Positions 4,969 to 47,368 of a DNA stretch of 47,368 bases are shown here, piece by piece. The position numbers and the translations under genes are program-made. The notes below the pieces were generated by a model. The model saw only the letters and a list, made by a program, of their open reading frames with translations. It was not told the DNA's origin and did no database searches. The first letter of the stretch is position 1. The number at the start of each line of letters is the position of its first letter. Location of the stretch: the IMG/VR virus record IMGVR_UViG_3300013131_000071, positions 1 through 47,368 of that record, one strand, 5' to 3'. The stretch is from a virus.

Positions 4969-4972
4969 GGGG

Positions 4973-5335
4973 TTAGCTCATGTACTTGGGAACGCCAGTA
5001 TCTACGGACGTATTTCTTACATTTTTATGTGAGTGAATTTCATTAAAATACATAATAATATATGGACCTTCTTCATGCTGATCTCTAAAACCCACAAGAC
5101 ATCTTGTTCCTGGAGAGGGTGCCACCGATTGTATTCCGTATGTAAACGGACACGGAACATTGGGAAGTATATTTCCTACAACACTTGAGTATTTCTCGTC
5201 AACCATAACTGTTGCGGTATTGTTGTGAGAATTATAACCCATAACAGTTCCAGGTCTATTTTTAATTTCTTTAAATTTTGAGTCTTCAATTTGATCGGTA
5301 ATTTTTTTATCAAATTTTGGATAATTAATCGGCAT
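4973..5335 (-). CDS. OB-fold baseplate protein (gp5-N-like)
   Basis: A 120-aa protein with a good GAGGAG site before ATG 5335. The middle reads RPGTVMGYNSHNNTATVMVD, then GNILPNVPCPF and GTRCLVGFRDQHEEGPYII. This is the five-strand pattern of the OB-fold found in phage spike and baseplate proteins (T4 gp5 N-terminus, P2 gpV). Such domains sit between the hub and the membrane-piercing needle and can hold the needle trimer. It follows the cell-wall hydrolase gene by 14 bases and precedes the spike-like gene by four, consistent with a three-gene hub/spike/lysozyme unit. Here the OB domain, needle and lysozyme are separate genes rather than fused as in T4 gp5. The OB assignment is from pattern only. 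Confidence 0.7.
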   Translation of the reverse strand: MPINYPKFDKKITDQIEDSKFKEIKNRPGTVMGYNSHNNTATVMVDEKYSSVVGNILPNVPCPFTYGIQSVAPSPGTRCLVGFRDQHEEGPYIIMYFNEIHSHKNVRNTSVDTGVPKYMS

Positions 5336-5349
5336 GACGCTCCTCTTTC

Positions 5350-6756: not shown

Positions 6757-7402
6757 AATTAGTTTTTTTATTTAATTCTGCTATTTTAGTCGCATAAATT
6801 TGCTTTTCTGACTCAGTCAAGTTTTCTAATAATGCAATTTGTCTTGAGCCACCATTGAAAGATTCCGCATTTGGTTCTGCGGCGTAACCGCTGATGCTAT
6901 GTGCATATGTTGTACCGTCGCTGTTGCCCACCATGCCACCAGAGCCAGTATTTAACGTTGTCGAATTTATAACTGTATCATTCAAGGCTTTGATCGTCGC
7001 CTCAAATCCACTAGGAGCTAAGCCCGTTGTTATAATCGATTGTTTCATTATTTCTGCACGAGCTGCTGCACCAGTTAAATATTTTGAGTTGGTTGGATCG
7101 TCTGGATCGGGTATCTTAACATCATCGTCAATTTCCGCACGAGATGCTATAATTGAATGCAAGGCGGATTGTGTTGACTGAGCATAGGCTGCGGTTACAA
7201 AAGCCGGATTCCTAAATAAACCATCCCCTTGCAATAATTTTGCGGGGTCCGCACTCCTAAGTGTTCTATCTTGCATCGGTTGTTTGGACATCGTAGTATT
7301 TTTAATTACTACTTCTCCGTTGGGATAAAAATGAGAACCAACTTTATCTACGATACTTTTAGTGCTTGATAAATCAGATGCATCAAATTCAAAATCTGAC
7401 AT
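6647..7402 (-). CDS. N-terminal part of the tail hydrolase (frame-broken) or separate hub protein
   Basis: A 251-aa ORF with a strong GGAGG site and ATG at 7402, two bases after the stop of the giant hub gene. The bulk (residues 1-230) is Ala/Ser/Thr-rich and not obviously enzymatic; I do not recognise a family. Its last ~20 codons (KGQKSRSRSNWPKFWALSRR) look like out-of-frame translation. The next frame continues with the plausible NRGQDLTGLSFGLYQEGTY leading into the hydrolase domains. Deleting one A from the AAAAA near 6705-6710 would fuse this ORF to the hydrolase. As a fusion, this part would be the anchoring domain that fixes the hydrolase to the baseplate hub. Confidence 0.7.
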   Translation of the reverse strand: MSDFEFDASDLSSTKSIVDKVGSHFYPNGEVVIKNTTMSKQPMQDRTLRSADPAKLLQGDGLFRNPAFVTAAYAQSTQSALHSIIASRAEIDDDVKIPDPDDPTNSKYLTGAAARAEIMKQSIITTGLAPSGFEATIKALNDTVINSTTLNTGSGGMVGNSDGTTYAHSISGYAAEPNAESFNGGSRQIALLENLTESEKQIYATKIAELNKKTNFGGNIYMFEIDFDKGQKSRSRSNWPKFWALSRRNLF

Positions 7403-24129: not shown

Positions 24130-27100
24130 TTAGAAAATTCCTGCAGAAATATTTATTGAAGATTGACCACTATTATTTTGAACAGGCATAACTGAACCGG
24201 ATATTCCATTTCTTGCCATCAAAATTCTTAGCTTTGCAGCTATGGACGCTTGATTTTCCTGCGCAGAAAAAGATGGATAACTAGGATTTGTCAAATTTGC
24301 TTCACGTATTTGTTGCGGATAATAGCCCATTTGAGACATGTTTATTCCCATAGATTGACCCATTTTAATTTTGATGTGTTCCATATTGGTATTCGGATGC
24401 CAACCTTCCCAGCTCAAATCAGGAAGTTCATGTCTGCTAAAAAATTCTGTTAAATCCGGTTTTTCTTCTACGGGCATTCCCCAAGCGGCTTGATAAAATC
24501 TTCTCTCCAACCTCGGGGCGGTTGACAATATTTTTTCTCTTTCTTCAGGATTTTGTTCCTGTATCATAGATCTAAAATGTTCTCTTTTTCTTTTTGGCAC
24601 TGCCAAAGACAACGTGTCTACGGAACTACCATACAAATCTGCACCATACATAGTCCTTCTGGCGGCCTGGTTAAATTGGTTGGCGGAAACGGAATCTCCA
24701 ACTTGAGAAGCTTGTGTTGCTAAAGATCTATTTTTAACGTACGAAAGAATATCGACATACTCTTCCAAAGCCATTTGTTTTTTACGTTCTTTTGGAATAA
24801 ATCTTTCTCCCGTAAAAACTTCTTTTGCGTTGTTGTACGCTGAATAAGCGGTTCCCGTTGTAAGGCCAACCAATGCCCCAATCGCCCTTGTTGTTGCCCT
24901 TCTGCCAAATAAAGCACCAACCCCTGCTGTGATCAATCCTGCCGTTAAAGGATTTCTTTGAGTGCTTTTATTATAAATTGGTTTTATAAAACTTTCAATT
25001 GGACTGTTCCATTCCGGAAACGAATTTCCATAGACATTTCTTCTCTCCCAATCTTCCCTAGCTGTTCTATTCGGAAAGAATTTTGTATTAATGAAAGTAT
25101 CTCTATGGGCCAAGTATTCTCCCATTTGGCCAACCATTTTTGCAGACCTACTGATGCCGAGCTCCTCAGCGCTCGCATGTTTATATTTATAAGGGCTAAA
25201 TTCATTTCTTTTTGTTGTCTGTGCAACTTGAGCTCGTATATTTTCTACCTCCACCCTTTCTGATGGCTCAAGATTGCCCATATTAATAGTTCTGTCAAGA
25301 GACCTGAATTGCCTTGAGTATGGCGCTACGTCTGCGAGAATATCAAGTTGAGTAACCGGACTTTCGTAATCTCTTCTTAACGGGTTAAGCCTTTCGTACG
25401 CAACTCCAGGCAATCTCAATTCTCCTTCTTGAATTTTGGAAAAAGGATCGCCAGTTTGAAAATTTATAAAATAATCAGATCCCGGCAAGAACGGATATTT
25501 CATTCCCATAGTGTTTCTTATAGGATTCAAATATGTTATATCTGTTCTTTCTTTCGGAATAAATCTTCTTGCTATTTCAGAAAGTTCTAATGTAGATTCA
25601 CTTACCGGAACGTCTCCAAGACCGCCGAGATTAAGGTCCCAAAATGACCTAGTCGACCCATATGCTTTGGCCGCTGATTGCAAAACCGGAACATTTGGTT
25701 GGAAATCGGCGTTTCCAAATCCAAATGTTTCCCTCAAAGAACCTAAACCAAAACCGTAAATACCGGCCATTTCTTGCATTCTGAAGCTAAACTCTCGGGA
25801 TTGAAATGCCGGACTTTGAGTGGTTATAGGGGCTCCCGATGGAACTATTGATGGCGGTATGTAGCCGGGAACTGGCGGAGGACCATATTGAAATGATTGT
25901 GTATAGTTTTGATTTGCGGTAGCAATTGCGTTATATGATATATTTCTAGCTGTATTTAATTGTCCTGCTGCTCCTGCAACTGAACTATTGTAATCACCTA
26001 TCTGCAATCCTGTTATTGGACCAGATGGTCTGCCTCCGCCAAAAGCTGCCACACCATCTTTATCAATTTGTGCTCCATAAATTGGGCTTACTCTTCCTGA
26101 CGACAACAGCCCTGATGGATCGAACGCACCACCATAACCAGCAGGGACATACTGAGAAAGGGCTTGAGACACTTCTTGCTGGTGCATCTGAACTTGAGGT
26201 TTAAGCAACCTGCCAACAGTCATGTTTAGCGCTGGAGTTAGTGGTCCAAACGGTCCAGTAAAATATTCTCCAGTTACCGGATACGGTCTATCGAAATAAT
26301 TTTCCCTCTCGAACCTATACGGATCGAATGGCCTCAGCGGAGAAAAATCATACCCATAAGCCAAGCGCTCAATGGGACTTCCAAATGCGTCTGAAGTATA
26401 GGTGCTTCCAGATTTCATTCTTCTGTAATAAGAAGGTCTGTAATATTGGACTTTACCACCACCAAAGGGTGTTACACCCAAAGGCCAGTATCTTCCTTGC
26501 CTTACGGGAACTTCGCCTTCTAGAAGTTGCTCTCTTTTTTCTTCATACCCCATACCACCAGGAACTAGGCCCGATGCGAGCGACTGGAACTCTACTGCCC
26601 CTCTTGCTGCCTTGCTTAAGAAAAATGGAGAATAAACTCTTTCTCCTCTATCATCTCTTTCCTGAGTGAAACCACCAATAGTTCTGTCTGCACCAAGTGC
26701 TAACGCACCTCCTACATAAAGTGGCGCAACTCTTTTGCCAACTATTCCACCAACAAAGAAACTTAAGGGGCTGCTGTATTTATCTGCATCAACAGATAAA
26801 CCTACGGTTCCAAAATATCTATTAATTCTGTCAGAAAGATGTATTGCAGGTATTGACGCTGCGCTAAATGCGTCAGGTGAGTTGTAGCTAGTAAATCCAA
26901 CTGTATTAGCAAGGACTCTACGAAAAGTTGTTTCTCCCCTTGCTGCTCTGTTTAATTGGCTTCCAAAAGTTGGAACAAAAGTTGTTCTTGCATTACCAAG
27001 AGGGTTAACTGCACTATCTCCAAGTTCATAGGGAGCTGCGCTAAAGTTCTTCTTGAAAAATGGTCTAACAAGCGCTGTCAATCTTCCGGATCCGGTTGCG

Positions 27101-30100
27101 CCAACATTAGATATAGTTTGTGTTGAAAAGGGTTTTGAAAGTCCAGATAACGCTCTGGCAAACTCTGGATTTCTTTCTCTTGCTCTAATTACCGAAGAAA
27201 GTGCTGCTTGTTGATTTTTTCCAAATTGATTTGCTGGATCATAAGTTTGATAAGAAAAAATATCAAATATATTTTCAAGAGCCGCTGCTCTTGCTTCAGC
27301 TAGTTGATCAGAAGAAATTCTACCTGTTTTTTTTAGTGTTTGTAAAACTTCTTCAATCTTTAAGGCTATTTGAGTCGGGTCTCCATCGTATTCTTTATAT
27401 GCAGTTATTTCAATAAGTACTTTGTTTATTGCGTTTCTTAAATAGTCTTGCCTGGTACTAATTGTTGGAGATCTATGTTTAATTAAATCAGTTGATAAAG
27501 AATCAATTTCTTCTGAAAGATTTTTAACAAATTGCATTGCTCTAGTAAGACCTATGGGATCTCTGCCACTAGCTCTTATTTCTGAAGCTGTAATTCCATA
27601 TATATTTTCAAGACTGGTTACAGCTTCTAGCAGTTCATCGTCAGCAATTTCGCTTAAAGGAGTATCTATCCCCTTAATACTTAATTTTCTTAGATTAAGA
27701 GCAGTATCTTTGGTGTATTCAGCGATAATTGGTAGTGGAGTTGCTCTTCTTGAAGTTTGTTCCTCTCTAAATGCGTCAAAAGCTCTTGTAACTTCATCTG
27801 CATCAAAGACCGTTTCCCCAAGTTCATTAACAACTGCAGGAGATCCATCGACTTCTACAAGTGATAGCGTTTTACCTCTTCCTGTGTTAATAGTTTTTTT
27901 GTCTAATAACCTAGCAAAAACAACTGGGTTTCGTATATCTTTTTTTCTCTCTAAGAATCTGCCAGCTCTTCTAAATAGCGAACTAGGCTGCTCTTCATCA
28001 ACATCAAACAAGGATTTAATTTTTTCTAAGCGACTTCTTGATCCTCCAGTTAAAGTAGAATCTCTTTCTTGCTCTCTTCCAGATGCTAGGCGTGCTGCTC
28101 TTGAATATAAATCTGTTTCAATTGATGAAAATCTTTTGTACAAACCAGAAAATTCTTGAACATCAGCCCCAGAAATACGTTCTGTAATCCCAAATATTTT
28201 TCCAACATTGCCAAATAGTCCAGATTTTTGGTTTACCCATGCGTATACATCTGGTCTATTTGCTCGATCAGCTAAGAAATCCTGTCTTGCAGTACCTCTT
28301 AAAAATTGTATTTCCGTATCTGGATTTACGCCTTTTGGTCCACCAAAACCCAAAAGTTGGAGTGGATTAAATTTTACTATCGGTATTCCATAACCTTCTG
28401 TTAATGAATTGAGAAAACTTTTAGCACCGGATCTCATCCTGGTTGTATCTACGATTCTTCCACTTGCAGTTTCGTAGACTCCAGTTAACGAGGAATATCC
28501 AATAGTTTTAGAAACTGGGTCCTGTAATGCTACTTGACCATACAATCTTCTTGCTTCTGCCCTGCTTTTGTCATCAAAAGATTCAAATATTCGCCTATCA
28601 AACGCTTGGTCAATAGATATTTCTCTCAATCCAAAAATATTAAATCCACCCATATTTGATGCTGGTGTCATTAATTTGTTATCAACCAAAAAACCTCTTA
28701 GTTGAGATGCGTCTGATGCGTCAAGCCCTCTTTTTGCTAACTCTGTTGCAATATATCTATCTGATGTATACGCTCCATCGGATTCAATTAATTTAATTCC
28801 TAATTTTTGAGCCGCTTTTCTTGATAGAAAACTCATCTTTTGAGGAGTTACTGCTCCAGTAAAATCTTCATACAAGGCTTTTTGGGGTCTACTAATTAAG
28901 TTTGCGTGAGGAACAATTATATTTTTGTCTACATCTGCAAAAGCAAAATTTGCTTGTGATCTTAATGCATTTCTATATGTTTCAGAAGTAAAAAGAGCGT
29001 CAGCTTGTTTAAAAGAAGTTTTTAAAATTTTTGAATTAAGATTTTTAGCTTTTTTGCCTAAATCTTTTTTTGCTCTTTCTGATAAAGCTTCAAAAAATTC
29101 ATCATCTGTACCTACATTTATTTTTTTTATACCATATGTTATTCTTTCAGAAATATTTCTTGTTCTATCAAATTGAGTTAAAAGTTGATTGATTTGAATT
29201 CCACCAACAAAATCATCCGCAACATCTTTGTCTATTCCTTTTCTAACCAAAGATTGCGTCACCGCTCTTAGGTACGCCTCATTTTCAAATTCACGTGTAA
29301 ATTGTCCAACTTTTGTTATTTGTCCATCTGCATCAACAAGTGATCTTGCGTTGAGTGAAGAGTATACAAGATTAGAAAATCTACTTGTGTGTTGTTTTTT
29401 AAGATTTTGTATTGTTCTTGTGAGAGTGTCTGCAGCGTGTGTTATATCTCCGCCAGATCTTCTAAGAGCTTCATCATAAGAAAGTGCGCCAGATATAACA
29501 TCATATGCTCTTTTTGAATTTTTCAATTGCTGTCTAAATTCTCTTGATCCAGTTGTAAAACCTTTAAGTGTCGGTATTGTATCAATAAAACCTTGTGTTT
29601 TTTCTCCTACCCCAAACTTTCCATAACCTGGAATAGTCAACTCGTCACCAGATTTGTTTTCGTATCCAAATAAATAACCTCTTGCAATTTTAGCGGCGCG
29701 TGCTAATTTTCCTTCACCAGACCTTTCTGACGCCGTTCTTGCGGCTGCTGCGCCTCTTCTTGCTTGATTGAGAGAAAAGACGACACCACGTTCTTCTCTT
29801 TGGGTTTTTCCAAATGCAGTATTGAAGGCATACGATGCTGAATTACTTATTCTACTAGCTTCTTGGATTATTTTTGAACTGTCTTGACCAAAAGACATTA
29901 ATATTGTTTTTATATCAGCTATTTTGTTTGCAGTTTTAAGTTGGTCTCTGCTTAAAGGTAGTGGAAAATCTTGATATGGCGCATCTGCAAGCTGCTTAAG
30001 TCTTTTTACGCCCGCTCCAGCTACTGTTTCTGGAATAATTAAATTGGTTATGTTAAGAGTAGACTGCTTAACGAAATCTGTTATAACATCCGCTGGATTA

Positions 30101-30759
30101 TACCATTTTACTTTTTGATCATTGTTTGAGTCTCCAAATATATTTTCGGTCAAACCTTTTTGCACCAGGTACATTGAGGGCAGCGTAAGCGGTAAATTTC
30201 TCGCGCTTCTTATGAGCCTTGTTTGCAGTTCGTCTCTATATCCCCACTCGGCAACAGGTTGACGGCCTGCTCTGATTGCCCTGAATTCTTTTCTGCTCAT
30301 CCACATTGTTCCGTCAGAAACAAAATCTGGACCAACTTGTCTAGTTAATGTAGGTTTCCTTATCTTTCCGTCTGCTAATTCAAAAATTAACTTAGCGTAG
30401 GGATCGGGAACAGAGTCATCCACATATCTAACAAGGCCTTCGTACTCATCAAGTGTTTTTCTGATTTGGGTAATATTTTGGACAAGCGTCCTGCCTAATT
30501 TGGAGCCTCCGTCAGCGCGTTGCTGTATTGTTTTAGCTAATTTAATTCCACCCTTGCTGAGTAGCTTGGTGCTTGCGGTGGTGGCAGCCAAAGTGGCGAC
30601 CATTGTGCTGATATACTTGACTATCGGTTTATCGTCAAGGGCGCGTGCGATCAAACCGCTGTTGGGATTTGGAGTTTTTTGTTCGTCAGAAGTTGCGGGA
30701 ATATCACGAGAACTAATCCCATAACCCAAATTGACTAACGGCGTCTTGTCTCTAAACAA
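24130..30759 (-). CDS. Tape-measure protein candidate (2209 aa)
   Basis: A 2209-aa protein placed right after the two chaperone-like genes, the classical position of the tape measure. Hydrophobic segments lie near residues 48-65 (ISTMVATLAATTASTKLL) and ~1943-1975 (TAGVGALFGRRATTRAIGAL). Long charged helical stretches fill the first ~1200 residues. Residues ~1380-1530 are different, rich in Tyr, Pro and Gly, with RQGRYWPLGVTPFGGG, VQYYRPSYYRRMKSG and ENYFDRPYPVTGEYF. I have a general memory of similar segments in giant phage structural proteins but cannot confirm it here. By the rough 1.5 angstrom per residue relation, the full length would match a tail of about 330 nm. The alternative is a large ejected internal protein. 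Confidence 0.75.
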   Translation of the reverse strand: MFRDKTPLVNLGYGISSRDIPATSDEQKTPNPNSGLIARALDDKPIVKYISTMVATLAATTASTKLLSKGGIKLAKTIQQRADGGSKLGRTLVQNITQIRKTLDEYEGLVRYVDDSVPDPYAKLIFELADGKIRKPTLTRQVGPDFVSDGTMWMSRKEFRAIRAGRQPVAEWGYRDELQTRLIRSARNLPLTLPSMYLVQKGLTENIFGDSNNDQKVKWYNPADVITDFVKQSTLNITNLIIPETVAGAGVKRLKQLADAPYQDFPLPLSRDQLKTANKIADIKTILMSFGQDSSKIIQEASRISNSASYAFNTAFGKTQREERGVVFSLNQARRGAAAARTASERSGEGKLARAAKIARGYLFGYENKSGDELTIPGYGKFGVGEKTQGFIDTIPTLKGFTTGSREFRQQLKNSKRAYDVISGALSYDEALRRSGGDITHAADTLTRTIQNLKKQHTSRFSNLVYSSLNARSLVDADGQITKVGQFTREFENEAYLRAVTQSLVRKGIDKDVADDFVGGIQINQLLTQFDRTRNISERITYGIKKINVGTDDEFFEALSERAKKDLGKKAKNLNSKILKTSFKQADALFTSETYRNALRSQANFAFADVDKNIIVPHANLISRPQKALYEDFTGAVTPQKMSFLSRKAAQKLGIKLIESDGAYTSDRYIATELAKRGLDASDASQLRGFLVDNKLMTPASNMGGFNIFGLREISIDQAFDRRIFESFDDKSRAEARRLYGQVALQDPVSKTIGYSSLTGVYETASGRIVDTTRMRSGAKSFLNSLTEGYGIPIVKFNPLQLLGFGGPKGVNPDTEIQFLRGTARQDFLADRANRPDVYAWVNQKSGLFGNVGKIFGITERISGADVQEFSGLYKRFSSIETDLYSRAARLASGREQERDSTLTGGSRSRLEKIKSLFDVDEEQPSSLFRRAGRFLERKKDIRNPVVFARLLDKKTINTGRGKTLSLVEVDGSPAVVNELGETVFDADEVTRAFDAFREEQTSRRATPLPIIAEYTKDTALNLRKLSIKGIDTPLSEIADDELLEAVTSLENIYGITASEIRASGRDPIGLTRAMQFVKNLSEEIDSLSTDLIKHRSPTISTRQDYLRNAINKVLIEITAYKEYDGDPTQIALKIEEVLQTLKKTGRISSDQLAEARAAALENIFDIFSYQTYDPANQFGKNQQAALSSVIRARERNPEFARALSGLSKPFSTQTISNVGATGSGRLTALVRPFFKKNFSAAPYELGDSAVNPLGNARTTFVPTFGSQLNRAARGETTFRRVLANTVGFTSYNSPDAFSAASIPAIHLSDRINRYFGTVGLSVDADKYSSPLSFFVGGIVGKRVAPLYVGGALALGADRTIGGFTQERDDRGERVYSPFFLSKAARGAVEFQSLASGLVPGGMGYEEKREQLLEGEVPVRQGRYWPLGVTPFGGGKVQYYRPSYYRRMKSGSTYTSDAFGSPIERLAYGYDFSPLRPFDPYRFERENYFDRPYPVTGEYFTGPFGPLTPALNMTVGRLLKPQVQMHQQEVSQALSQYVPAGYGGAFDPSGLLSSGRVSPIYGAQIDKDGVAAFGGGRPSGPITGLQIGDYNSSVAGAAGQLNTARNISYNAIATANQNYTQSFQYGPPPVPGYIPPSIVPSGAPITTQSPAFQSREFSFRMQEMAGIYGFGLGSLRETFGFGNADFQPNVPVLQSAAKAYGSTRSFWDLNLGGLGDVPVSESTLELSEIARRFIPKERTDITYLNPIRNTMGMKYPFLPGSDYFINFQTGDPFSKIQEGELRLPGVAYERLNPLRRDYESPVTQLDILADVAPYSRQFRSLDRTINMGNLEPSERVEVENIRAQVAQTTKRNEFSPYKYKHASAEELGISRSAKMVGQMGEYLAHRDTFINTKFFPNRTAREDWERRNVYGNSFPEWNSPIESFIKPIYNKSTQRNPLTAGLITAGVGALFGRRATTRAIGALVGLTTGTAYSAYNNAKEVFTGERFIPKERKKQMALEEYVDILSYVKNRSLATQASQVGDSVSANQFNQAARRTMYGADLYGSSVDTLSLAVPKRKREHFRSMIQEQNPEEREKILSTAPRLERRFYQAAWGMPVEEKPDLTEFFSRHELPDLSWEGWHPNTNMEHIKIKMGQSMGINMSQMGYYPQQIREANLTNPSYPSFSAQENQASIAAKLRILMARNGISGSVMPVQNNSGQSSINISAGIF

Positions 30760-39588: not shown

Positions 39589-39873
39589 TTACACTACTAT
39601 TGTAATCTCAGCATCTCCCGAAATTGATATAATTGAAGCGCTCGCTAAAGCTTCTACTTGATCATCCGACGCTTCAACTGATATTTCATTGCCGGTTATG
39701 TCTATGCTTGAAACAGCGATTGTTGTAAAGTTAGAAAAATCTTCATTTGTTGCATAAAAAACAACTATATTGTTTAAGATGATTGGATTAGCTAGACTGG
39801 GGGCATTAATTATTAAAGTGCCATTATAGGTCACATTAGAACTATTGTAGTTTATAGCTTCGTTATAGATCAT
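39589..39873 (-). CDS. Small beta-rich protein of unknown function
   Basis: A 94-aa ORF starting at ATG 39873 behind AAAGG. The sequence begins MIYNEAINYNSSNVTYNGTL and continues as alternating hydrophobic/polar strands (LIINAPSLANPIILNNIVVF, SSIDITGNEISVEAS) ending in AEITIVV. This is typical of a small beta-sandwich structural or decoration protein. No cysteine pairs, membrane segment or catalytic motif is visible. It has its own putative promoter upstream and sits between the oxygenases and the neck genes. It could be a minor fibre or neck ornament; I do not recognise the family. Confidence 0.65.
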   Translation of the reverse strand: MIYNEAINYNSSNVTYNGTLIINAPSLANPIILNNIVVFYATNEDFSNFTTIAVSSIDITGNEISVEASDDQVEALASASIISISGDAEITIVV

Positions 39874-39943: not shown

Positions 39944-40537
39944 TTATCTTTGTGTTGTGATATTAAAGGATATAACTATTTTTTCGTCACCCTGCAAGGC
40001 AGGGCACCCATGCAGAAAATCGCTTTTAAAAATTATTAACTTCCCAGCAACGCATTGGTGTGTACAAGTTTGAAAATTAAATTCATTAAATCTATCTTCC
40101 GTTATTGGGAAAGACATATCGTTTATGTTGTTATAAAACATAATTACGTCTTTTTTATTGGTCACGCTCACATAAAATGCTCCACTTATCAAACTATTTG
40201 GATGGTTATGGGGGAAAAGGTAATCTCCTTTTTTGCTCAAATTAGCCCACATATTTTGGATGCTAATTGGTACATCGTAGCCAAGTATTTCTAAATATTG
40301 ACTACTTTGGAACAAAATGGTTTGCTTTAGCTCATCAAAAATTGTATTATTGGCTAAATCATTTTCAATCACACCGTGAGTGGTGTCAACATACTTTGAC
40401 TTTGTTCTAATACTTTTATTTTTGATTAATCTTAAAATTTCCTTCTTGTAAATCGGCAATTGTTCCATATGCAATCCATTGCATATATACAAGGTTTTAG
40501 GAAACCACGTCTCAATTATTGGTTCGGTTGAATTCAT
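39944..40537 (-). CDS. 2OG-Fe(II) oxygenase-like protein B
   Basis: A 197-aa protein starting with MNSTEPIIETWFPKTLYICN. The ATG overlaps the upstream stop (TAATG), so the longer upstream extension to 40594 is rejected as a shadow. Residues ~106-120 read FPHNHPNSLISGAFYVSV, where HxH would supply iron ligands. Near 170-190 lies FKSDFLHGCPAL followed by VISFNITTQ, with the distal His and the C-terminal strand. This matches putative 2OG-Fe(II) oxygenases common in aquatic phages (TIGR02466-like pattern, from memory). Such enzymes hydroxylate proteins, nucleotides or small molecules. The substrate here is unknown; adjacency to fibre genes suggests virion or host-surface modification. Confidence 0.8.
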   Translation of the reverse strand: MNSTEPIIETWFPKTLYICNGLHMEQLPIYKKEILRLIKNKSIRTKSKYVDTTHGVIENDLANNTIFDELKQTILFQSSQYLEILGYDVPISIQNMWANLSKKGDYLFPHNHPNSLISGAFYVSVTNKKDVIMFYNNINDMSFPITEDRFNEFNFQTCTHQCVAGKLIIFKSDFLHGCPALQGDEKIVISFNITTQR

Positions 40538-41076
40538 TATATATAAGAATTTTGTCTTGGAAAAAATAATACATTTAGCACATATCTTCCACAAAGGTCT
40601 GTGGTTGTCATTCCTGAATGTTTCAAGCTTGAATCAAAAACAATCAAACGGTTAGCGACTGACTCGATCTCTTCCCCGTTCTCAAATACGGTTTTACCGT
40701 TGTTCGTGTTCAAGTAAAGAACGGCAGATCTACAAGGAGTTGGGCTGTCCGTATGAAACCCTTGTAGTTTGTTTTCTTTCATCGGGGGCATAAAATTCAT
40801 TGACATTCTAACCAAACTAAAACAATTCAACTTTTCCAAAACAGGAATCATCAAATTTTCAAAATGTTCAGACATTGGAATTTGATTGAAGTAAAGCATG
40901 TGGGTGAATTGATAGCCGTAATAAGACTCGGCTATATCAGCCATTTTTTCACCTTTTTGAGTTGATTCAGTCTTGTAGTACCAAGGGAAAAATGTTGATT
41001 TAGCAGTTGAAACAATCGAATTAAAATACCCTTCATCTAGGGCGTTGTCAATAATTTCAATATTGTTTTCAATCAT
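40537..41076 (-). CDS. 2OG-Fe(II) oxygenase-like protein A
   Basis: A 179-aa protein. Residues ~104-110 read GFHTDSP (HxD), followed by SAVLYLNTNNGKTVFENGEE, RLIVFDSSLKHSGM (distal His near residue 155) and GRYVLNVLFF (2OG-binding Arg near 163). This is the full HxD...H...R set of iron- and 2-oxoglutarate-dependent dioxygenases, similar in size to phage prolyl-hydroxylase-like enzymes. It overlaps the next oxygenase gene by one base, so the two are translationally coupled. A TATACT element lies just upstream of its AAAAGG start region. The two enzymes share the fold but differ in their iron-ligand motif (HxD versus HxH). Its substrate is unknown. Confidence 0.85.
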   Translation of the reverse strand: MIENNIEIIDNALDEGYFNSIVSTAKSTFFPWYYKTESTQKGEKMADIAESYYGYQFTHMLYFNQIPMSEHFENLMIPVLEKLNCFSLVRMSMNFMPPMKENKLQGFHTDSPTPCRSAVLYLNTNNGKTVFENGEEIESVANRLIVFDSSLKHSGMTTTDLCGRYVLNVLFFPRQNSYI

Positions 41077-41106: not shown

Positions 41107-41469
41107 TTACTCCTGATGCAGGTAAATCCATGACAATTGTTGTTCGTCCCAAAAATAACATCCTTCAGGTCTTGGAGAAGGAGGATCCCACAAACATGAT
41201 TCTTCATTGAAAGCCCAAGATGGGTAAGGTTTTGGGGGAATAAATGCGTCTAGTTCTTGGTTGTAAGTATATCCGATACCAGCCATATTTTTCCTAAAAG
41301 GCTCGCCACCCAATATGTGTATGCCACCTCTTGTATTGTACGAAGTTCTTTTGCATCCCGCATTGAAAAAGCTGCCGTAATGCTCTTCCCAATCAATATC
41401 GCCTTCATCTTTGCCAACGATAACTTGCGTCACCACGTTGTCTGAATTTATAATTGCGTAGTGTGCCAT
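41107..41469 (-). CDS. 'MAHY' small fibre-associated protein, copy B
   Basis: A 120-aa protein starting MAHYAIINSDNVVTQVIVG, with KRTSYNTRGGIHILG, KNMAGIGYTYNQELDAFIPP and a C-terminus rich in Trp and Pro (GCYFWDEQQLSWIYLHQE). Copy A at 46114 shares MAHYA(V/I)IN, KRTSYN and the AGMG/AGIG-TWN/TYN block. A third copy's C-terminus (YRWNETDLDWVEV) is at the right window edge. Its ATG overlaps the stop of the adjacent glycine-rich gene, so its dose is tied to the adhesin. Such small proteins beside adhesins may be tail-fibre chaperones or capping subunits. This is inferred; I know the style from aquatic phages but not a proven function. Confidence 0.75.
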   Translation of the reverse strand: MAHYAIINSDNVVTQVIVGKDEGDIDWEEHYGSFFNAGCKRTSYNTRGGIHILGGEPFRKNMAGIGYTYNQELDAFIPPKPYPSWAFNEESCLWDPPSPRPEGCYFWDEQQLSWIYLHQE

Positions 41470-42419
41470 TACTTAAAACTCACTGTTCCAGCGCCTGCCG
41501 TAATTGTGGTTACTTTGTTGGCTCCAACTGTTGAGGTTGATGTAGTCAAACCTGCAGATGGGACAATTGTTCTTGATGCAGGGTAACGGATGAGAACAAT
41601 TCCTGAACCTCCAGTTCCCCAATATGCACCGCCGCCGCCGCCGCCTGAATTTGCTGGAGCACCAGTTCCAGGACCAACACCGCCAGTATCATTTCTACCT
41701 CTGCTACCACTTCCTGCGCCACCGTTTCCGTGCCCGTCAGCGGTATTATTTCCGCCGCCGCCGCCACCACCAGCGTAAGTCACCGCACTGCCCGTGATGT
41801 TTGTTGTCAAACCATTTCCGCCGTCACCACCACGATGCCATACACCGTTTCCTCCTTGCGCACCAGCACCGCCTCCACCACCGTCACCTTCGCGATTGTT
41901 CGCTGATTGAGGAATACCACCGTTGTTTCCTTGAATAGGATCTGTCACGCGAACTTGCCCAGGATTGCTTGTTCCAAAACCTTCACCACCAGAACCTGAA
42001 CCACCGGGAAAGTTAATTGCTGTATTGAGATTTGGATTTCCGTAAATACCTGAACCTGCTCCGCCTTTAGAAATAATTGATGCAAATCTTGAATCGCTTC
42101 CGTTAGTTCCAGGGTATCCTGGTGTAGGACCGCCTGCTCCGACAGTTACGATATAAGTTGCGCCTGTGGCTAAAGACAATACTGTTTCGGCCGCGCCACC
42201 GCCACCGGTATTTTCTCCAACAACGGAAGAACGGTAACCGCCTCCACCCGCACCGCCTGCTCTGTCAGAGCCAGCACCGCCACCAGCAACAATAACATAT
42301 TCGCATTTAAAACCAACAGAGCCGTAGAGCCTGCTAGAAATTTGCCCAGAACCAGACCTTCCAGTACCAAAACCGGTTGCAACTTGTTTACTTGCGCGGA
42401 ATTTTTTGTTCTTTGACAT
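41469..42419 (-). CDS. Glycine-rich tail-fibre adhesin C
   Basis: A 316-aa protein starting with MSKNKKFRASKQVATGFGTG behind an AAGGA site. It contains EYVIVAGGGAGSDRAGGAGG, then several poly-Gly runs separated by short variable loops. It ends GGSGIVLIRYPASRTIVPSA and TTITAGAGTVSFK. The frame of conserved start (VVAGGGGG) and end (SGIVLIRY) around hypervariable glycine stretches is that of receptor-binding glycine-rich proteins, for example the T4-like gp38 adhesins built from a polyglycine II core. The loops between glycine helices would contact the host receptor. It is a paralogue of the glycine-rich proteins near 45000 and 46800, but its C-terminus differs most. Confidence 0.82.
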   Translation of the reverse strand: MSKNKKFRASKQVATGFGTGRSGSGQISSRLYGSVGFKCEYVIVAGGGAGSDRAGGAGGGGYRSSVVGENTGGGGAAETVLSLATGATYIVTVGAGGPTPGYPGTNGSDSRFASIISKGGAGSGIYGNPNLNTAINFPGGSGSGGEGFGTSNPGQVRVTDPIQGNNGGIPQSANNREGDGGGGGAGAQGGNGVWHRGGDGGNGLTTNITGSAVTYAGGGGGGGNNTADGHGNGGAGSGSRGRNDTGGVGPGTGAPANSGGGGGGAYWGTGGSGIVLIRYPASRTIVPSAGLTTSTSTVGANKVTTITAGAGTVSFK

Positions 42420-42442
42420 AATAATTCCTTTTTAAAGTAAAA

Positions 42443-42787
42443 TTAGGCTATTCTGTTAATGTAGCCAGACAATGTAATTACGTTTGCGGTTGCAGCAAAC
42501 GCTCTCAATGTTTTGCTGTTTGTCAACAACAAACCTGGAACAACCAAGGTTAAACCTGCTTTAGTTGGAATTGAAATAATAATGTTTTGATCTGGAACGG
42601 TTGCGCCACCATACTCAACAGTCAAAACAACGTCTGCTGTATGTCCGTTATAAGCATAGAGCCAAATTTCGTCCAAAGCTGTTGCATGTGCGGTATGAAT
42701 GAGTGTTCCAGCAGTAGCTGTTTGAACCACCTTAATAGGTAGCCCATCCGTACCGGCTGAAAAATTAACTTTACTGAATGTTGCCAT
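42443..42787 (-). CDS. 'MATF' small virion protein, copy B
   Basis: A 114-aa protein starting MATFSKVNFSAGTDGLPIKV, then THTA-like strands, DEIWLYAYNGHTADVVLTVE, TKAGLTLVVPGLLLTNSKTL and VITLSGYINRIA. The same order (MATF, VKV, DEVWLYANN, AGLVLVIPG, VILLTGYVNQIS) is present in copy A at 45593. It is entirely beta-rich and probably a small beta-sandwich that caps or joins a fibre. A conserved 28-base translation-start region is shared with copy A. It immediately precedes glycine-rich adhesin C, as copy A precedes adhesin B, suggesting a two-gene adhesin module. The function is unknown. Confidence 0.75.
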   Translation of the reverse strand: MATFSKVNFSAGTDGLPIKVVQTATAGTLIHTAHATALDEIWLYAYNGHTADVVLTVEYGGATVPDQNIIISIPTKAGLTLVVPGLLLTNSKTLRAFAATANVITLSGYINRIA

Positions 42788-42802
42788 TAATTATCTCCTA
42801 TT
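42775..42802 (-). repeat. 28-base duplicated translation-start region, copy B
   Basis: This region spans the ribosome-binding site and first codons of MATF copy B and matches 45943-45970 with one mismatch (28 bases compared). The sites lie about 3.2 kb apart in direct orientation, so recombination between them would delete the fibre, glycosyltransferase-like and adhesin B genes. Confidence 0.85.
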
Positions 42803-42819
42803 GTTAAGTTTAATAATAT

Positions 42820-43773
42820 TTAACCAAAAACTTGACCCAAAAGAACCACTTGGTCGTTTTCCCAGTTTGTAATTTTTGTTGAGTCAATTGCAGCCGAAGC
42901 ATTTATGTCGGCGTTAACAATTGTTCCGTCGGCAATCATCGCGGATGTAACCGTGCCGGTATCCGTAGTCTGCACTACCGATGCACCAACAGCGATAGTT
43001 GCTGTAGAACCCTCGCCTGGAGTGTGTGTTACCGAAATACCAGTTCCTGCCGACAGATCAACCATATAGTTTCCAGTCGTGTCTGTTCCCAAGTCAATAG
43101 CATCATTAACCCAAGCAGATCCGTTGTACTTAAGGAATTGATCTGCAGCAGGGGTGGCAATTGTGACGTCTGTCAATCCATCTAGTGACAATACAGCGGC
43201 TGATTGAGCATACGATTCAGTTGCAATATTGGCGTAATCGGTTCCGTTGGTTGTCAATTCCCACTTGTCGCTGGTTTCATTCCAACGAAGGCCAACATTT
43301 GCGACATCACCGCGCTTGATTTCAATGCCAGCATTCTCTGACGGCGCGCCAGTGGCGTTGTTGTTGAGGACAATGATGTTGTCATCAAGGGTAATTGTTT
43401 CAGTATTAATCGAAGTCGTGGTTCCAGAAACCGTAAGATTTCCCGAGACCGTCAAATTGTTTGTGGTTACAGTGCCCGTAAATGTTGGTGAAGCAAGAGC
43501 CGACTTAAGATCCAAGGCAGTTTGCGTCGCGGTGGAAACCGGCTTGTTTGCGTCAGAGGTGTCGTCGACATTGCCAAGCCCAACCATGGTCTTGGTGACG
43601 CCGGATATTGACGAAACTGTTACTGTGCCATTTGCAGCAACGTTTGCAACAACTGTCCCAGAAGAATTTTTAAACTCAACAAGAGAAGCAGTTGCTCCAG
43701 AAGCAGCTTTAAAAACAGCTGATTCATCAAATACTGTAATTTCTGGTGATGTTTCTACTCTTAAACGTGCCAT
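42820..43773 (-). CDS. Tail fibre protein
   Basis: A 317-aa fibre protein with the usual repeat-rich middle: VGLGNVDDTSDANKPVSTA, ASPTFTGTVTTNNLTVSGNL, then NENA-type strands (ETITLDDNIIVLNNNATG) and WNETSDKWELTTNGTDYAN. It ends in an SAMIADGTIVNADINASAAI block. These motifs are common to long tail fibres of aquatic phages. The segment LDDNIIVLNNN...WNETSDKW is a well-known fibre repeat unit. It probably extends from the baseplate and carries an adhesin at its tip. Its promoter-like leader at 43808 has a variant of the TACTATAA element. No C-terminal autoprotease or chaperone domain is visible. Confidence 0.85.
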   Translation of the reverse strand: MARLRVETSPEITVFDESAVFKAASGATASLVEFKNSSGTVVANVAANGTVTVSSISGVTKTMVGLGNVDDTSDANKPVSTATQTALDLKSALASPTFTGTVTTNNLTVSGNLTVSGTTTSINTETITLDDNIIVLNNNATGAPSENAGIEIKRGDVANVGLRWNETSDKWELTTNGTDYANIATESYAQSAAVLSLDGLTDVTIATPAADQFLKYNGSAWVNDAIDLGTDTTGNYMVDLSAGTGISVTHTPGEGSTATIAVGASVVQTTDTGTVTSAMIADGTIVNADINASAAIDSTKITNWENDQVVLLGQVFG

Positions 43774-43806
43774 GTTTCTCCTAATTATATATAGATAGCC
43801 AACAAC

Positions 43807-43815
43807 AATAGTAAT
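43807..43815 (-). promoter_or_regulatory. Variant late-promoter-like element before the fibre gene
   Basis: The minus strand reads ATTACTATTGTTG, matching the TTACTAT core of the other elements but with TTG instead of AAT after it. It lies 35 bases upstream of the fibre ATG. A TATATATAATT stretch and the ribosome-binding site follow. Confidence 0.35.
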
Positions 43816-43851
43816 GTAACTGCTGGTTAAAATAAACTAAATTATTTAACA

Positions 43852-44658
43852 TTAAATTGTTATTCTTTTTAAAAATTCTAACATTTTTCCAGTGTATTTG
43901 ATGCGACCAAAATGAATTAAATCAATAGTTGGGTCTACCCAAACTTTGCCATTTATTTTTTGCCAATACCTACAAAATCCATAATCTTCAGACAAGAATC
44001 TTCCATCTTCATCAACATATGAATTAAATAAAGCGTATGCATTATCCGCTTCTAGATTGTTTAATGCTCCAGTGTCATCTTTGTATTTTAATTTTTTATA
44101 TTTTTTAAACATTTTATCAAACACTTGGCGCTTGATCACCATAAAACCAGTGCCAGATTCAAGACATTCCAATGCCCCATTGGAAACATTGATTTCAGTT
44201 TCTCCGGGCTTAGTTAAATGAGCAACATATCTTGATCCATACTCCATTAAATCTTTTGAATCCAAATCTTTTAAAGCTCCTTCTTTAACTTTTTCCCAAT
44301 TTATTTCTTTTATTGGGTAAGAAGCAGTAACAACATCTTTGTCGTGCCAAAGCAATTTTAATACGGCTTCTTTTTTGAATTGAAGATCAACATCAATAAA
44401 AAATAAATGAGTATAGTCTGGATTACTCATAAATTTAGCAACGAGATTGTTTCTCGCGCGATTGATTAAAGAATCAGATATTGTACATACAGAATACTTT
44501 AAACCTATCTCTTTAAAAAAGAGACAAGTCTGCAGAAAACTGATCATAAAAGGTTCTGTTACATGAGAATCATAACAGGGTATTGCGAAAAAAATATTCC
44601 ATTTTTCGATTTGTTCTTTAGTTATTGTTATTTGTTTTTTTTCTTGTTCTACGGGCAT
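43852..44658 (-). CDS. Glycosyltransferase-like protein (GT-A fold)
   Basis: A 268-aa protein with a nucleotide-sugar transferase pattern. Residues ~20-35 read WNIFFAIPCYDSHVTEPF, followed by DSLINRARNNLVAKFM and, at ~86-94, FFIDVDLQF, a DxD motif that would bind the metal-sugar nucleotide. The C-terminal part has GTGFMVIKRQVFDKMF and FLSEDYGFCRYWQKING, typical acceptor/catalytic segments. Such genes in aquatic phages may glycosylate virion proteins or host-surface targets. It stands between glycine-rich adhesin B and the fibre gene, suggesting a link to receptor recognition. The acceptor is unknown. The AT-rich leader (TATATTATATATATGATATAAT) may include its own promoter. Confidence 0.8.
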   Translation of the reverse strand: MPVEQEKKQITITKEQIEKWNIFFAIPCYDSHVTEPFMISFLQTCLFFKEIGLKYSVCTISDSLINRARNNLVAKFMSNPDYTHLFFIDVDLQFKKEAVLKLLWHDKDVVTASYPIKEINWEKVKEGALKDLDSKDLMEYGSRYVAHLTKPGETEINVSNGALECLESGTGFMVIKRQVFDKMFKKYKKLKYKDDTGALNNLEADNAYALFNSYVDEDGRFLSEDYGFCRYWQKINGKVWVDPTIDLIHFGRIKYTGKMLEFLKRITI

Positions 44659-44692
44659 AATAGAATATATTATATCATATATATAATATATA

Positions 44693-45583
44693 TTATGCCC
44701 AACTCACATTACCTGAACCAGCGGTAATAGTCGCTCGTTTGTATCCGCCAGATGACGCTGATTCTGTGCCTGTAAGCCCTGCGCCGATTGTTATAGTAAA
44801 TGTGTCTGCGTATCGCAAAATTACTACACCGCTACCACCCGTACCGGCAGTGCCAAACCTTCCACCGCCCCCACCACCCGTGTTTGCCGTACCGCTTGTT
44901 CCGTTGCCTGCACCACCGCCACCAGAACCGCCACTAGCAGACGAACCGTTTTCACACATTCCGCCACCGCCACCTGCGTAAGTAACTGAACTGCCTGTAA
45001 TTGAAGTTGCTCGACCTGCCCCACCAGCCCCAGGTCCAGCCCCACCCGAAGTGGAATTGGCACCTGCCGCCGAAGCACCGCCGCCGCCAGCACCGTTTCT
45101 TACGCTACTCGGCGCCGAAAATGCCGTACCGCCTGCAAATCCCTGACCTGACGGCGAAGCCGCACCGCCGCTAAAAGTTCCAGAATCGTGTCCACCACCG
45201 CCACCGCCCGAACCGCCGCTGTTGCCAGCACCTTCTTTAGCGCCGCCGCCACCGCCGCCCGTTGAAGTAATCGTGTCAAATACTGAGCTGTTACCGTTTG
45301 ACCCATTGGCAGAATTCCAACCACCATTTTGCGCCCCACCGCCACCAACGGTCACGGTGTAATTTGTTGCACCCACCAAACTAAGGGCGGTTTCCAATGA
45401 CCCTGAACCTCCAGTACTCGTAACAGTGCAACGCATACCACCCGCACCGCCACCGCCGCCTGAACCACCACCACCACCAGCAACGACAAGATAATCAACT
45501 GTGATTAACACAAGTTCGTCACCTGTCGGCATCCAAGCCGAAGTGTATGTCGAAGCTTTTAAGCGTGTTCCAAAACGTGACAT
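44693..45583 (-). CDS. Glycine-rich tail-fibre adhesin B
   Basis: A 296-aa protein starting MSRFGTRLKASTYTSAWMP, then DYLVVAGGGGGSGGGGGAGG and repeated glycine-rich segments with variable short loops (GGAGGMRC, GGGGGHDSG, GGGGGMCENGS). It ends SGVVILRYADTFTITIGAGL and KRATITAGSGNVSWA. The start (VVAGGGGG) and end (SGVVILRYAD) are shared with the gene near 46800. These bracket a hypervariable poly-Gly core as in phage gp38-type adhesins. The coding DNA is GC-rich against the AT-rich background. It follows MATF copy A by nine bases and is probably co-translated. Confidence 0.85.
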   Translation of the reverse strand: MSRFGTRLKASTYTSAWMPTGDELVLITVDYLVVAGGGGGSGGGGGAGGMRCTVTSTGGSGSLETALSLVGATNYTVTVGGGGAQNGGWNSANGSNGNSSVFDTITSTGGGGGGAKEGAGNSGGSGGGGGGHDSGTFSGGAASPSGQGFAGGTAFSAPSSVRNGAGGGGASAAGANSTSGGAGPGAGGAGRATSITGSSVTYAGGGGGMCENGSSASGGSGGGGAGNGTSGTANTGGGGGGRFGTAGTGGSGVVILRYADTFTITIGAGLTGTESASSGGYKRATITAGSGNVSWA

Positions 45584-45592
45584 CGCTTTAAC

Positions 45593-45955
45593 CTACGAAA
45601 TCTGGTTGACGTATCCAGTCAACAGAATTACATCGGCTGTTGCGGCAAACGCTTTGATTACTTTTGTGTTTTGTAAAATCAAACCTGGTATGACCAGCAC
45701 CAGACCCGCCTCGGCGCTAATCGTAAGTTCAATGTTCCCGTCAGCGGCGGTAGCCGTGCCCCACTCAATGGTCAATTTCACACTTGAAGAAGAAGTGTTG
45801 TTCGCATAAAGCCAAACCTCGTCGCACAATCCCGCCGTGGTGACGGTGGTGTAGGCAGTGTGAACCGTGACCGCACCAGCGGTATTCGTACCCGTGACCT
45901 TGACGGCTAGCCCGTCTGTTGAGCCAGAAAATTTTCTTTTTGTGAATGTTGCCAT
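45593..45955 (-). CDS. 'MATF' small virion protein, copy A
   Basis: A 120-aa protein, starting MATFTKRKFSGSTDGLAVKV, then VTVHTAYTTVTTAGLCDEVW, LYANNTSSSSVKLTIEWG, AEAGLVLVIPGLILQNTKVI and VILLTGYVNQIS. It is a paralogue of copy B at 42443 with roughly half of the positions identical by eye. Beta-rich with no known enzymatic motif. It is preceded by a putative late promoter 27 bases upstream of the start, so it opens a new transcription unit that includes adhesin B. The repeated pairing of this gene with a glycine-rich adhesin implies a joint role, for example an adhesin-attachment or trimer-cap subunit. The role is an inference. Confidence 0.75.
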   Translation of the reverse strand: MATFTKRKFSGSTDGLAVKVTGTNTAGAVTVHTAYTTVTTAGLCDEVWLYANNTSSSSVKLTIEWGTATAADGNIELTISAEAGLVLVIPGLILQNTKVIKAFAATADVILLTGYVNQIS

Positions 45956-45970
45956 TAGTTATCTCCTATT
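45943..45970 (-). repeat. 28-base duplicated translation-start region, copy A
   Basis: This covers the AGGAG ribosome-binding site and first codons of MATF copy A. It matches 42775-42802 with a single mismatch. It marks the same boundary in both modules, as if a module had been copied from a point just upstream of the start codon. Confidence 0.85.
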
Positions 45971-45981
45971 TTTTACTTTTA

Positions 45982-45990
45982 TTATAGTAA
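45982..45990 (-). promoter_or_regulatory. Putative late promoter before MATF copy A
   Basis: The minus strand reads TTACTATAATAAAAG, 27 bases upstream of the MATF copy A start. It shares TACTATAA with the elements upstream of the sheath, adaptor and 94-aa genes. Confidence 0.5.
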
Positions 45991-46113
45991 CGATCACTTA
46001 TATGATATCGAGTCATATTGTATCATAATAATAGTTATTTTTAAAATAAATAAGTTAATTATTTGCGGAGTTTTGGTAGCGGTATCAGCCACCTAGTTAG
46101 ATAGCGACCCACA
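45991..46113. other. AT-rich intergenic region with inverted repeats
   Basis: The part of the 158-base gap beyond the promoter-like element. It holds a seven-base inverted repeat (TATGATA at 46001-46007 with TATCATA at 46021-46027) and, on the minus strand, a short hairpin GGTGGC/GCTACC near 46075-46095 with a seven-base loop. The hairpin is followed by AAAACTCC rather than a T run, so it is not a convincing terminator. No ORF is seen. It separates the MAHY copy A gene from the MATF copy A unit. Confidence 0.4.
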
Positions 46114-46389
46114 TCACGGTTCGGGTTCTGGTGCTACAGGCGCAACAAACTCTGTGCCGTTCCAAGTGTCACCCATGCCAGCATATTTGCCACGAGAAAC
46201 ACCGTCAATCAGATTGTTATTATATGAAGTGCGTTTTACATACAAGGTTGGGTTATTTATTTGTGCTGTGTAAAACGCTTCCCACGCTTCGGTTGAACCG
46301 CCTACACCATTTTGCACGACATTTTCATCTACGCCTGTGCGAACTTCAATGACTGTGTTTTGTTCGTTGATAACTGCGTAATGTGCCAT
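46114..46389 (-). CDS. 'MAHY' small fibre-associated protein, copy A
   Basis: A 91-aa protein if started at the ATG (MAHYAVINEQNTVIEVRTG), whose first base overlaps the upstream stop (TAATG). A GTG three codons upstream is possible but less likely. It contains VKRTSYNNNLIDGVSR, KYAGMGDTWNGTEFVAPV and ends EPEP. Shared blocks with copy B at 41107 are MAHYA(V/I)IN, KRTSYN and AGMG/AGIG plus TWN/TYN. It lacks the Trp-rich C-terminal tail of copy B, being about 30 residues shorter, so the two copies differ mainly at the end. Its position directly behind a glycine-rich adhesin gene mirrors copy B. Confidence 0.75.
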   Translation of the reverse strand: MAHYAVINEQNTVIEVRTGVDENVVQNGVGGSTEAWEAFYTAQINNPTLYVKRTSYNNNLIDGVSRGKYAGMGDTWNGTEFVAPVAPEPEP

Positions 46390-47300
46390 TATGCCCACCT
46401 AACTGAGCCTGTGCCTGCGGTTATTGTTGCTCGTTTGTATCCGCCTGACGCTGCGCTTTCTGTTCCTGTTAAACCTGTGCCAAAAGTTATTGTCAGCGTG
46501 TCTGCGTATCGCAGGATTACTACACCTGATGAACCGTTGCCACCGTTGCCTGGATTATTACCACCGCCACCACCGCCACCGCCACCACGATTAACAGTTC
46601 CATTTGTGCCGTTGGCTGTTGCTGAACCGTTACCGCCATTTGATGAACCACCCGTGCCAGCCGTGCCAGCCGTGTTCACACCGCCACCACCGCCACCCGA
46701 ATAAGTAACGCTTGAACCTGTTATTGAACTTGCAACGCCTGCGCCGCCAGCACCGCCACTAGAACTCGCCCCGTTGCCACCGACCGCACCAGCACCGCCG
46801 CCGCCGCCATAACCTTGACTAGCGGCGGTCGAACCACCTGAACCACCTGCATAACCTTGATTTGTTGTGCCTAAACCAATATTTGCACCACCAGTAGTTA
46901 CGGCTTGACCACCACCACAACCGCCGTTTTGTGCGGCAAATTGTTGAAAACCTGCACCAGCACCACCACCATTTGACACAATGGTATTAAATTGCGAAAA
47001 ACCACCACTAGCAGCAGCAGCAGTAGCAGTAGCGCCGTTATAAGTTCCACCAGCACCACCAGCACCAACCGTTACTGGATAATCATTATTTGTAAATAAA
47101 CTTTGTGCGCTTTCAACAGAACCACCACCACCAGTAGCAGTAACAGAACTTCTTAAACCGCCGCCGCCGCCACCGCCACCGTCACCGCCGCCGCCACCAG
47201 CAGCAGCCAAAACAAGAAAATCGACGGTAATAGCAGTTTGACCATACGAAATTGTCGGTGTGTTGCTTGCCGAAACATAACCCATCAACCTCGCCGCCAT
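46389..47300 (-). CDS. Glycine-rich tail-fibre adhesin A
   Basis: A 303-aa protein starting at ATG 47300 (MAARLMGYVSASNTPTISY) behind AGAGG. This start is preferred over a TTG six codons upstream because of that ribosome-binding site and the TAAGTATG junction with the preceding gene. It contains FLVLAAAGGGGGDGGGGGG and many Gly runs with short variable loops. It ends GSSGVVILRYADTLTITFG and GYKRATITAGTGSVRWA, nearly the same as adhesin B. This is again the gp38-like pattern of conserved ends around a hypervariable glycine core. With adhesins B and C it forms a set of three related tip proteins. Confidence 0.85.
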   Translation of the reverse strand: MAARLMGYVSASNTPTISYGQTAITVDFLVLAAAGGGGGDGGGGGGGGLRSSVTATGGGGSVESAQSLFTNNDYPVTVGAGGAGGTYNGATATAAAASGGFSQFNTIVSNGGGAGAGFQQFAAQNGGCGGGQAVTTGGANIGLGTTNQGYAGGSGGSTAASQGYGGGGGAGAVGGNGASSSGGAGGAGVASSITGSSVTYSGGGGGGVNTAGTAGTGGSSNGGNGSATANGTNGTVNRGGGGGGGGGNNPGNGGNGSSGVVILRYADTLTITFGTGLTGTESAASGGYKRATITAGTGSVRWA

Positions 47301-47302
47301 AC

Positions 47303-47368
47303 TTAAACCTCTACCCAATCTAAATCAGTTTCATTCCAACGATACAAACCGCCGTCTGACGGATACGG
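47303..47368 (-). CDS. C-terminal end of another MAHY-type protein (partial, right edge)
   Basis: The last 21 codons of a gene entering the window from the right: PYPSDGGLYRWNETDLDWVEV then TAA. The YRWNET...WV ending resembles the Trp-rich tail of MAHY copy B (CYFWDEQQLSWIYL). The stop is two bases before the adhesin A start (TAAGTATG). This suggests a third MAHY-type gene immediately upstream of adhesin A, so the adhesin modules probably continue to the right. Confidence 0.6.
   Translation of the reverse strand, partial: PYPSDGGLYRWNETDLDWVEV

Follow-up and report, generated by a model that had tools for sequence, protein, structure and literature searches.

What do the repeated adhesin genes at one end of a phage genome fragment do, and how did the copies come to stand side by side? 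The question is raised by the virus record IMGVR_UViG_3300013131_000071, a linear sequence of 47,368 bases that was analysed over its whole length (the window) and that belongs to a contractile-tailed phage, as judged from recognisable sheath and baseplate genes. At its right end the minus strand carries, from 5' to 3', the genes MAHYc-GLYc-MAHYb-MATFb-GLYb-GT-FIB-MATFa-GLYa-MAHYa, in which GLY stands for glycine-rich adhesins, MATF for candidate adaptors, MAHY for candidate chaperones, GT for a glycosyltransferase-like protein and FIB for a tail fibre. This site is rather likely to be a variable tail-tip locus with tandem plug-in receptor-binding cassettes, each made up of a fibre tail, a MATF, a tagged adhesin and a MAHY. 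The reading is drawn from the homology of the copies, the gene order, a motif at the fibre end, a tag common to different heads and the variation of the locus among relatives, and from these we infer its docking, chaperone and multiple-display parts.

Repeated genes and their order

Two MATF genes, three glycine-rich adhesins and three MAHY ends, one of them partial, had been put forward in the original prediction, and all were located, on the minus strand throughout. Alignment, which might have revealed copies devoid of similarity, gave identities of 55 % between MATFa (42443–42787) and MATFb (45593–45955), 44–56 % among pairs of GLYa (41469–42419), GLYb (44693–45583) and GLYc (46389–47300, with its likely start ATG at 47300), and 45 % between MAHYa (41107–41469) and MAHYb (46114–46389); the copies are therefore homologous. 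Of MAHYc (47303–47368), a long-form MAHY that runs off the contig, only the C-terminal 21 residues, PYPSDGGLYRWNETDLDWVEV, are present, and this translation aligned with the C-terminus of MAHYa.

Both full-length MATF genes and both MAHY genes had PHROG matches, to phrog_30535 (E 1e-39 for MATFb and 7e-33) and phrog_7759 (E 3e-33 for MAHYa and 6e-16), respectively, over the full length of the profiles, and GLYa matched phrog_2295 (E 4e-29); each of these families is annotated as being of unknown function. GLYb (E 2e-15) and GLYc (E 3e-12) scored above the cut-off of the Pfam family Gly_rich_2 (PF21722), and GLYa (E 4e-5; 24.1 bits, the cut-off being 24.3) fell 0.2 bits short of it. The solved fibre protein Pam3 gp24 was also just under this cut-off (E 5e-5) and covered positions 10–225 of the profile, the same span as the GLY proteins of the window.

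The further claim that these genes alternate in the same order stood in part: the order MATF-GLY-MAHY recurs elsewhere, but in the gene order given above only the last copy forms a complete MATF-GLY-MAHY unit. The arrangement is nevertheless more than chance, since dozens of contigs show MATF, GLY and MAHY in this same order. When viral contigs were scanned with MATF, at least 575 places matched, of which 80 loci were kept. In most of these for which the sequence sufficed, profile annotation revealed a MATF, then one or two GLY genes and finally a MAHY, the order MATF-GLY(-MAHYs-GLY)-MAHY being widespread, and several loci held repeated units (three MATF-MAHY units in L074 and two in L017). 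A protein with at least 20 % glycine stood directly after MATF in 56 of 78 cases and directly before MAHY in 55 of 58, counts that are descriptive only because the sample was fetched by MATFb-like patterns and includes near-duplicates, so that the loci are not independent. The commonest junction 5' of MAHY was a 1-nucleotide overlap of stop and start codons (24 of 58); the same overlap (TAATG) was found at both GLY–MAHY junctions of the window, where the ATG codons of MAHYa and MAHYb overlap the stop codons of GLYa and GLYc, respectively.

Among cultured phages, adjoining GLY and MAHY genes, all annotated as hypothetical, were found in Pelagibacter phage HTVC025P (gp43–44, overlapping), Roseobacter phage CRP-143 (gp39–40) and the Methylophilales phage Melnitz. 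A phage-wide tblastn search with MATF returned only weak matches in cultured phages, namely PA-SR01, Pam2 and EBPR podovirus 3. In the two Pseudanabaena phages PA-SR01 and Pam2 (L094:5992–9386 and L095:5920–9275), the MATF relative was followed, with an overlapping stop and start, by a 1013-residue protein that is not glycine-rich. MATF relatives were also present in assembled genomes of Anaerolineae/Chloroflexi (L208, L210–L212 and L214, the L212 contig being 1.46 Mb long), which suggests prophages or tailocin-like elements.

In L199 (reverse complement 10618–11295), the MATF position directly 5' of GLY was occupied by a 225-residue protein, cupredoxin-like by eye and with a second beta-rich half, which is a possible alternative adaptor; the same contig (reverse complement 4432–6129) has a 565-residue open reading frame (ORF) in which one glycine-rich domain follows another, suggestive of a fused double adhesin. 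In L198 (reverse complement 6583–7248), a gene that is sulfotransferase-like by eye (start ...AGMPRSGSTLLASLLNQNP) lies between GLY and a short MAHY.

Fibre tail, candidate adaptor, tag and candidate helper

The ORF directly 5' of MATF typically ends in approximately DQxxLxxQ[IV]F[SG]-stop. A loose form of this motif was present in 73 of 78 such ORFs (8 % of other ORFs) and a strict form in 81 % (2.9 % of other ORFs), rates that are somewhat inflated as the count favoured the matching frame if several upstream ORFs were open. The gap between the fibre-tail ORF and MATF was usually 9–15 nucleotides. In the window, FIB (42820–43773) ends in the putative docking peptide ENDQVVLLGQVFG-stop (42820–42861), identified by motif comparison and situated 32 nucleotides before MATFa.

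The AlphaFold2 model of MATFb, a protein 88 % identical to its counterpart in L007, is a small beta-sandwich (predicted local distance difference test score, pLDDT, 94). Mean column identity was 67 % for MATF and 42 % for GLY. MATF is probably an adaptor between fibre and adhesin, and the fibre tail is a candidate for physical docking onto it.

Adhesins that follow MATF combine a conserved N-terminal tag with a variable head, which may be glycine-rich, Kelch-like, LamG-like or of another kind, the names Kelch-like and LamG-like having been assigned by simple sequence motifs; the head in L038 is a Pfam phage collar domain. The L078 GLY and the Kelch-like adhesin of L083 were 92 % identical in their N-terminal 26 residues and 24 % identical in the remainder; for the L085 GLY and the LamG-like adhesin of L066, the corresponding values were 88 % and 26 %. 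Within the window, the tag of GLYb (MSRFGTRLKASTYTSAWMPTGDE) is also borne by the Kelch-like adhesins of L010 and L017, to whose tags it is 65 % identical, and in the MATF tree MATFb grouped with the MATF proteins of these same two loci (100/92). The adaptor was therefore kept whilst the head changed. GLYc has a GYVSA-type N-terminal tag, as in L072 and L070, and GLYa a divergent one. A strict link between the class of GLY tag and the preceding gene was considered and rejected, as GYVS-type tags occurred after both MATF and MAHY.

MAHY proteins occur naturally in a long form of approximately 115–120 residues, to which MAHYa (120 residues) belongs, and a short form of approximately 75–95 residues. 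The possibility that MAHYb (91 residues) is a decayed gene was rejected since approximately 25 relatives share the short form and the nearest of them, that of L017, shares 72 % identity and ends in the same way. MAHYa and MAHYb are candidate chaperones of GLYa and GLYc, respectively. The AlphaFold2 model of MAHYa (pLDDT 95) has no C-terminal helical domain, and the best BFVD matches of MAHY were uncharacterised phage proteins (E 5e-9). A Foldseek search of the PDB ranked chain a of 7YPX first for MAHY; at 162 residues, this chain is as long as gp25, the fibre chaperone of Pam3. Sequence searches of the PDB with MATF, MAHY and GLY returned nothing meaningful. MAHY is likely to work like a tail fibre chaperone and is probably the chaperone of the glycine-rich adhesin; this is a statement about its role and not about membership in the chaperone families, as 43 MAHY proteins had no significant match to the Pfam tail fibre assembly chaperones (Tfa/Pam3 gp25/PF16778).

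Mechanistically, we propose that the short conserved peptide at the C-terminus of FIB, or of the small connector proteins found in related arrays, would dock onto MATF and that MATF, as a small beta-sandwich adaptor, would hold the adhesin through the N-terminal tag of the latter. The adhesin head, glycine-rich here and Kelch-like, LamG-like or other elsewhere, would bind the host receptor, and MAHY, translated right after the glycine-rich adhesin and often coupled to it, would help to fold or cap the glycine-rich head.

These roles could be distributed differently, with MAHY as a structural cap or second receptor-binding subunit kept on the tip and MATF as part of the fibre knob or the adhesin itself, but we regard this as unlikely. 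Carbohydrate-binding modules among the weak fold matches of MATF speak for it, but the much higher column identity of MATF than of GLY is unlike that of a receptor-facing part. For MAHY as a cap, it can be said that the protein has beta hairpins or nothing in place of the helical trimerisation domain of Pam3 gp25, and that in Ur-lambda and Mu the chaperones remain part of the virion (PMC9608196); however, the glycine-rich gene precedes MAHY in nearly all cases (the 55 of 58 given above) and the stop and start codons often overlap, as for a pair of client and chaperone.

Several results count against the cassette reading itself, in addition to the inflated motif rate and the dependence among the sampled loci. 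MATFb has no docking-tail fibre directly upstream, as is also true of some MATF genes of L074 and L017. Foldseek gave no significant structural match for MATF, only weak beta-sandwich matches including TNF/C1q-like and carbohydrate-binding folds (best E 5e-3), and the match of MAHY to 7YPX chain a was weak (E 2.3, probability 0.21). The hhalign comparison of MAHY with Pam3 gp25 was not significant (probability 1.6 %).

Resident core, variable cassettes and origin of the copies

Comparison with relatives placed the boundary of the variable region at position 39828: on its left the window and L003 share 96 % identity over 13 kb, and to the right the content differs. The L003 sequence just upstream of the divergence closes with the final repeat of a Kelch-like adhesin (63 % identical to that of L017, E 2e-16). 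Across 85 loci, comprising the window, L003–L006 and 80 found via the conserved gene g298 (some on the same contigs), GLY was present within approximately 9 kb only in the window and the related pair L153/L154. In whole-record searches of 20 relatives, GLY, MATF and MAHY were found only in G008, G009 and G015. In G015 and G008, the arrays beside GT are longer, differ in gene order and include small connector proteins that end in the docking tail; two lineages have reshuffled arrays at the locus. As most of the relatives' records are fragments, the absence of the cassette is weak evidence for any single relative.

GT (43852–44658; phrog_1574, annotated as being of unknown function) is a conserved core gene of the locus, 76–80 % identical in seven of the 20 relatives, some of them devoid of any GLY, where it stands beside a FIB with the same N-terminus. 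The FIB of the window is short: its N-terminal 56 residues and middle match the longer resident fibres of relatives, and the docking tail replaces their usual C-terminus. Since GT and a FIB with the same N-terminus also occur in relatives without GLY, they form the older resident core and the cassettes are the variable part, the reverse of the earlier proposal that the fibre and glycosyltransferase genes had been inserted into the adhesin genes. That tail-tip adhesin modules have been gained, lost and rearranged among related phages is well supported.

The 158-nucleotide gap 5' of MATFb (45956–46113) is AT-rich and has no open fibre or connector gene; related arrays usually hold one that ends in the docking tail at this place. 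Beyond MAHYa on the minus strand, two 2-oxoglutarate (2OG)-Fe(II) oxygenase-like genes (40537–41076 and 39944–40594, together 39944–41076; PF13759, E 3e-16, and PF13640, below cut-off) lie between the cassettes and the conserved flank, which continues with HYP94, g298, g147 and the sheath gene. 2OG-oxygenase genes were present within approximately 9 kb in 64 of the 85 loci, mostly as arrays. In L004 (1171–8362) and similar loci (L098–L176), the stretch from the tail fibre to HYP94/g298 holds several 2OG-Fe(II) oxygenase paralogues, often four to seven, as against two in the window. Farther to the left, the window has giant ORFs of 3028, 1718 and 2209 residues (7404–16490, 18972–24128 and 24130–30759) with no Pfam matches.

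That the modules are diverged tandem copies of one ancestral cassette, duplicated recently and in place in this phage, would fit their being adjoining, homologous and in the same orientation, and the C-termini of GLYb and GLYc are similar. It is nevertheless improbable: DNA identity between copies was only 64–73 %, MATFb is much closer to its L007 relative than to MATFa, and the nearest relatives of MAHYa and MAHYb are those of L074 and L017, respectively. An approximately unbiased test rejected MATFa and MATFb as sisters (p 0.014, with few columns and a long MATFa branch), and the MATF copies were therefore acquired separately or diverged long ago. For MATF, duplication in place is largely refuted by the tree; GLYb and GLYc could have arisen in this way.

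A reservoir of switchable adhesins in one genome, as the original prediction had it, would require that the adhesin expressed within the phage population is altered by inversion, by a diversity-generating system or by the copies recombining with one another. Several homologous adhesins are indeed present in one genome, and their glycine-rich stretches have short runs in common, but the longest exact run was 17 nucleotides of glycine codons, all the genes are on one strand and inverted repeats were weak. No Pfam match to an invertase, other recombinase or reverse transcriptase was found among the scanned ORFs of the window, which is a fragment, so that such a gene may lie elsewhere. With the copies as divergent as stated above, the notion of a reservoir went unsupported, and we hold switching to be very improbable. 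Over time, exchange and rearrangement among phages appear to have produced the diversity, with no switch inside the genome.

The multi-receptor tip of the same prediction, with several adhesins displayed on one virion, is plausible. More tentatively, and with some doubt, the cassettes may follow a plug-and-socket standard, by which unrelated aquatic phages with a common fibre-end peptide, MATF adaptor and adhesin tag would exchange heads of different folds in trans and arrays would mount several adhesins at once. If docking takes place as proposed, it would explain how receptor-binding heads of unrelated folds are exchanged without rebuilding the fibre. The locus has the look of a naturally occurring plug-in system by which a phage could change the bacteria that it grips. 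The analysis proposes functions for PHROG families listed as unknown, members of which are present in hundreds of contigs from environmental phages, as the number of MATF relatives indicates, and a testable rule (fibre tail, adaptor, tag, head and helper) by which genes for host binding might be spotted in uncultured phages.

Comparison with known systems

Phage Mu carries alternative pairs of fibre and assembly genes (S-U and S'-U') in one genome, on a segment inverted by Gin; the copies in the window, in contrast, all share one strand, and the scanned ORFs revealed no inversion system. In T-even phages and S16, a separate glycine-rich adhesin, gp38, stands on the end of the gp37 fibre and sets host specificity, as is proposed for GLY, but there is neither an adaptor protein nor a tandem array. 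Unlike GLY, gp38 matches PF05268/PF21721 and not Gly_rich_2; no GLY matched these GP38 profiles, and hhalign of GLY with S16 gp38 aligned 12–13 columns with a probability under 1 %, the same as for a shuffled sequence.

The solved fibre–chaperone complex Pam3 gp24–gp25 (PDB 7YPX) likewise pairs a distal glycine-rich adhesin domain of PF21722 with a small downstream gene for a folding helper (PMC9608196). Pam3 differs in having a single fibre gene with the head in cis, in one copy, without MATF or a docking tail, and gp25, unlike MAHY, has a C-terminal helical domain. As the hhalign comparison of GLY with gp24 was not significant, the link between them rests on their common Pfam family, and it is only through this family that GLY may be linked to the polyglycine II/TNF-like fold, in which glycine-rich helices are stacked above a TNF-like base.

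In the Alteromonas phages A5 and V22, a fibre and its cognate chaperone are exchanged as a unit between unrelated phages; this is a two-gene module, and the parts of its description consulted include no adaptor, tag or tandem cassettes (PMC10579305). In the pelagimyophages, which are large aquatic myoviruses, the host recognition cluster is similarly a hypervariable island of tail-fibre genes that includes glycosyltransferases, but it belongs to another, T4-like lineage and is described at the level of the island, without a cassette grammar (PMC7029224). No account of a cassette such as this one, with an adaptor, a fibre-end peptide and a tag common to different heads, was found in a literature search. 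Single pieces of the locus thus resemble known systems, and the combination of adaptor, fibre-end peptide and tag, as read from the sequences, appears to be the new part.

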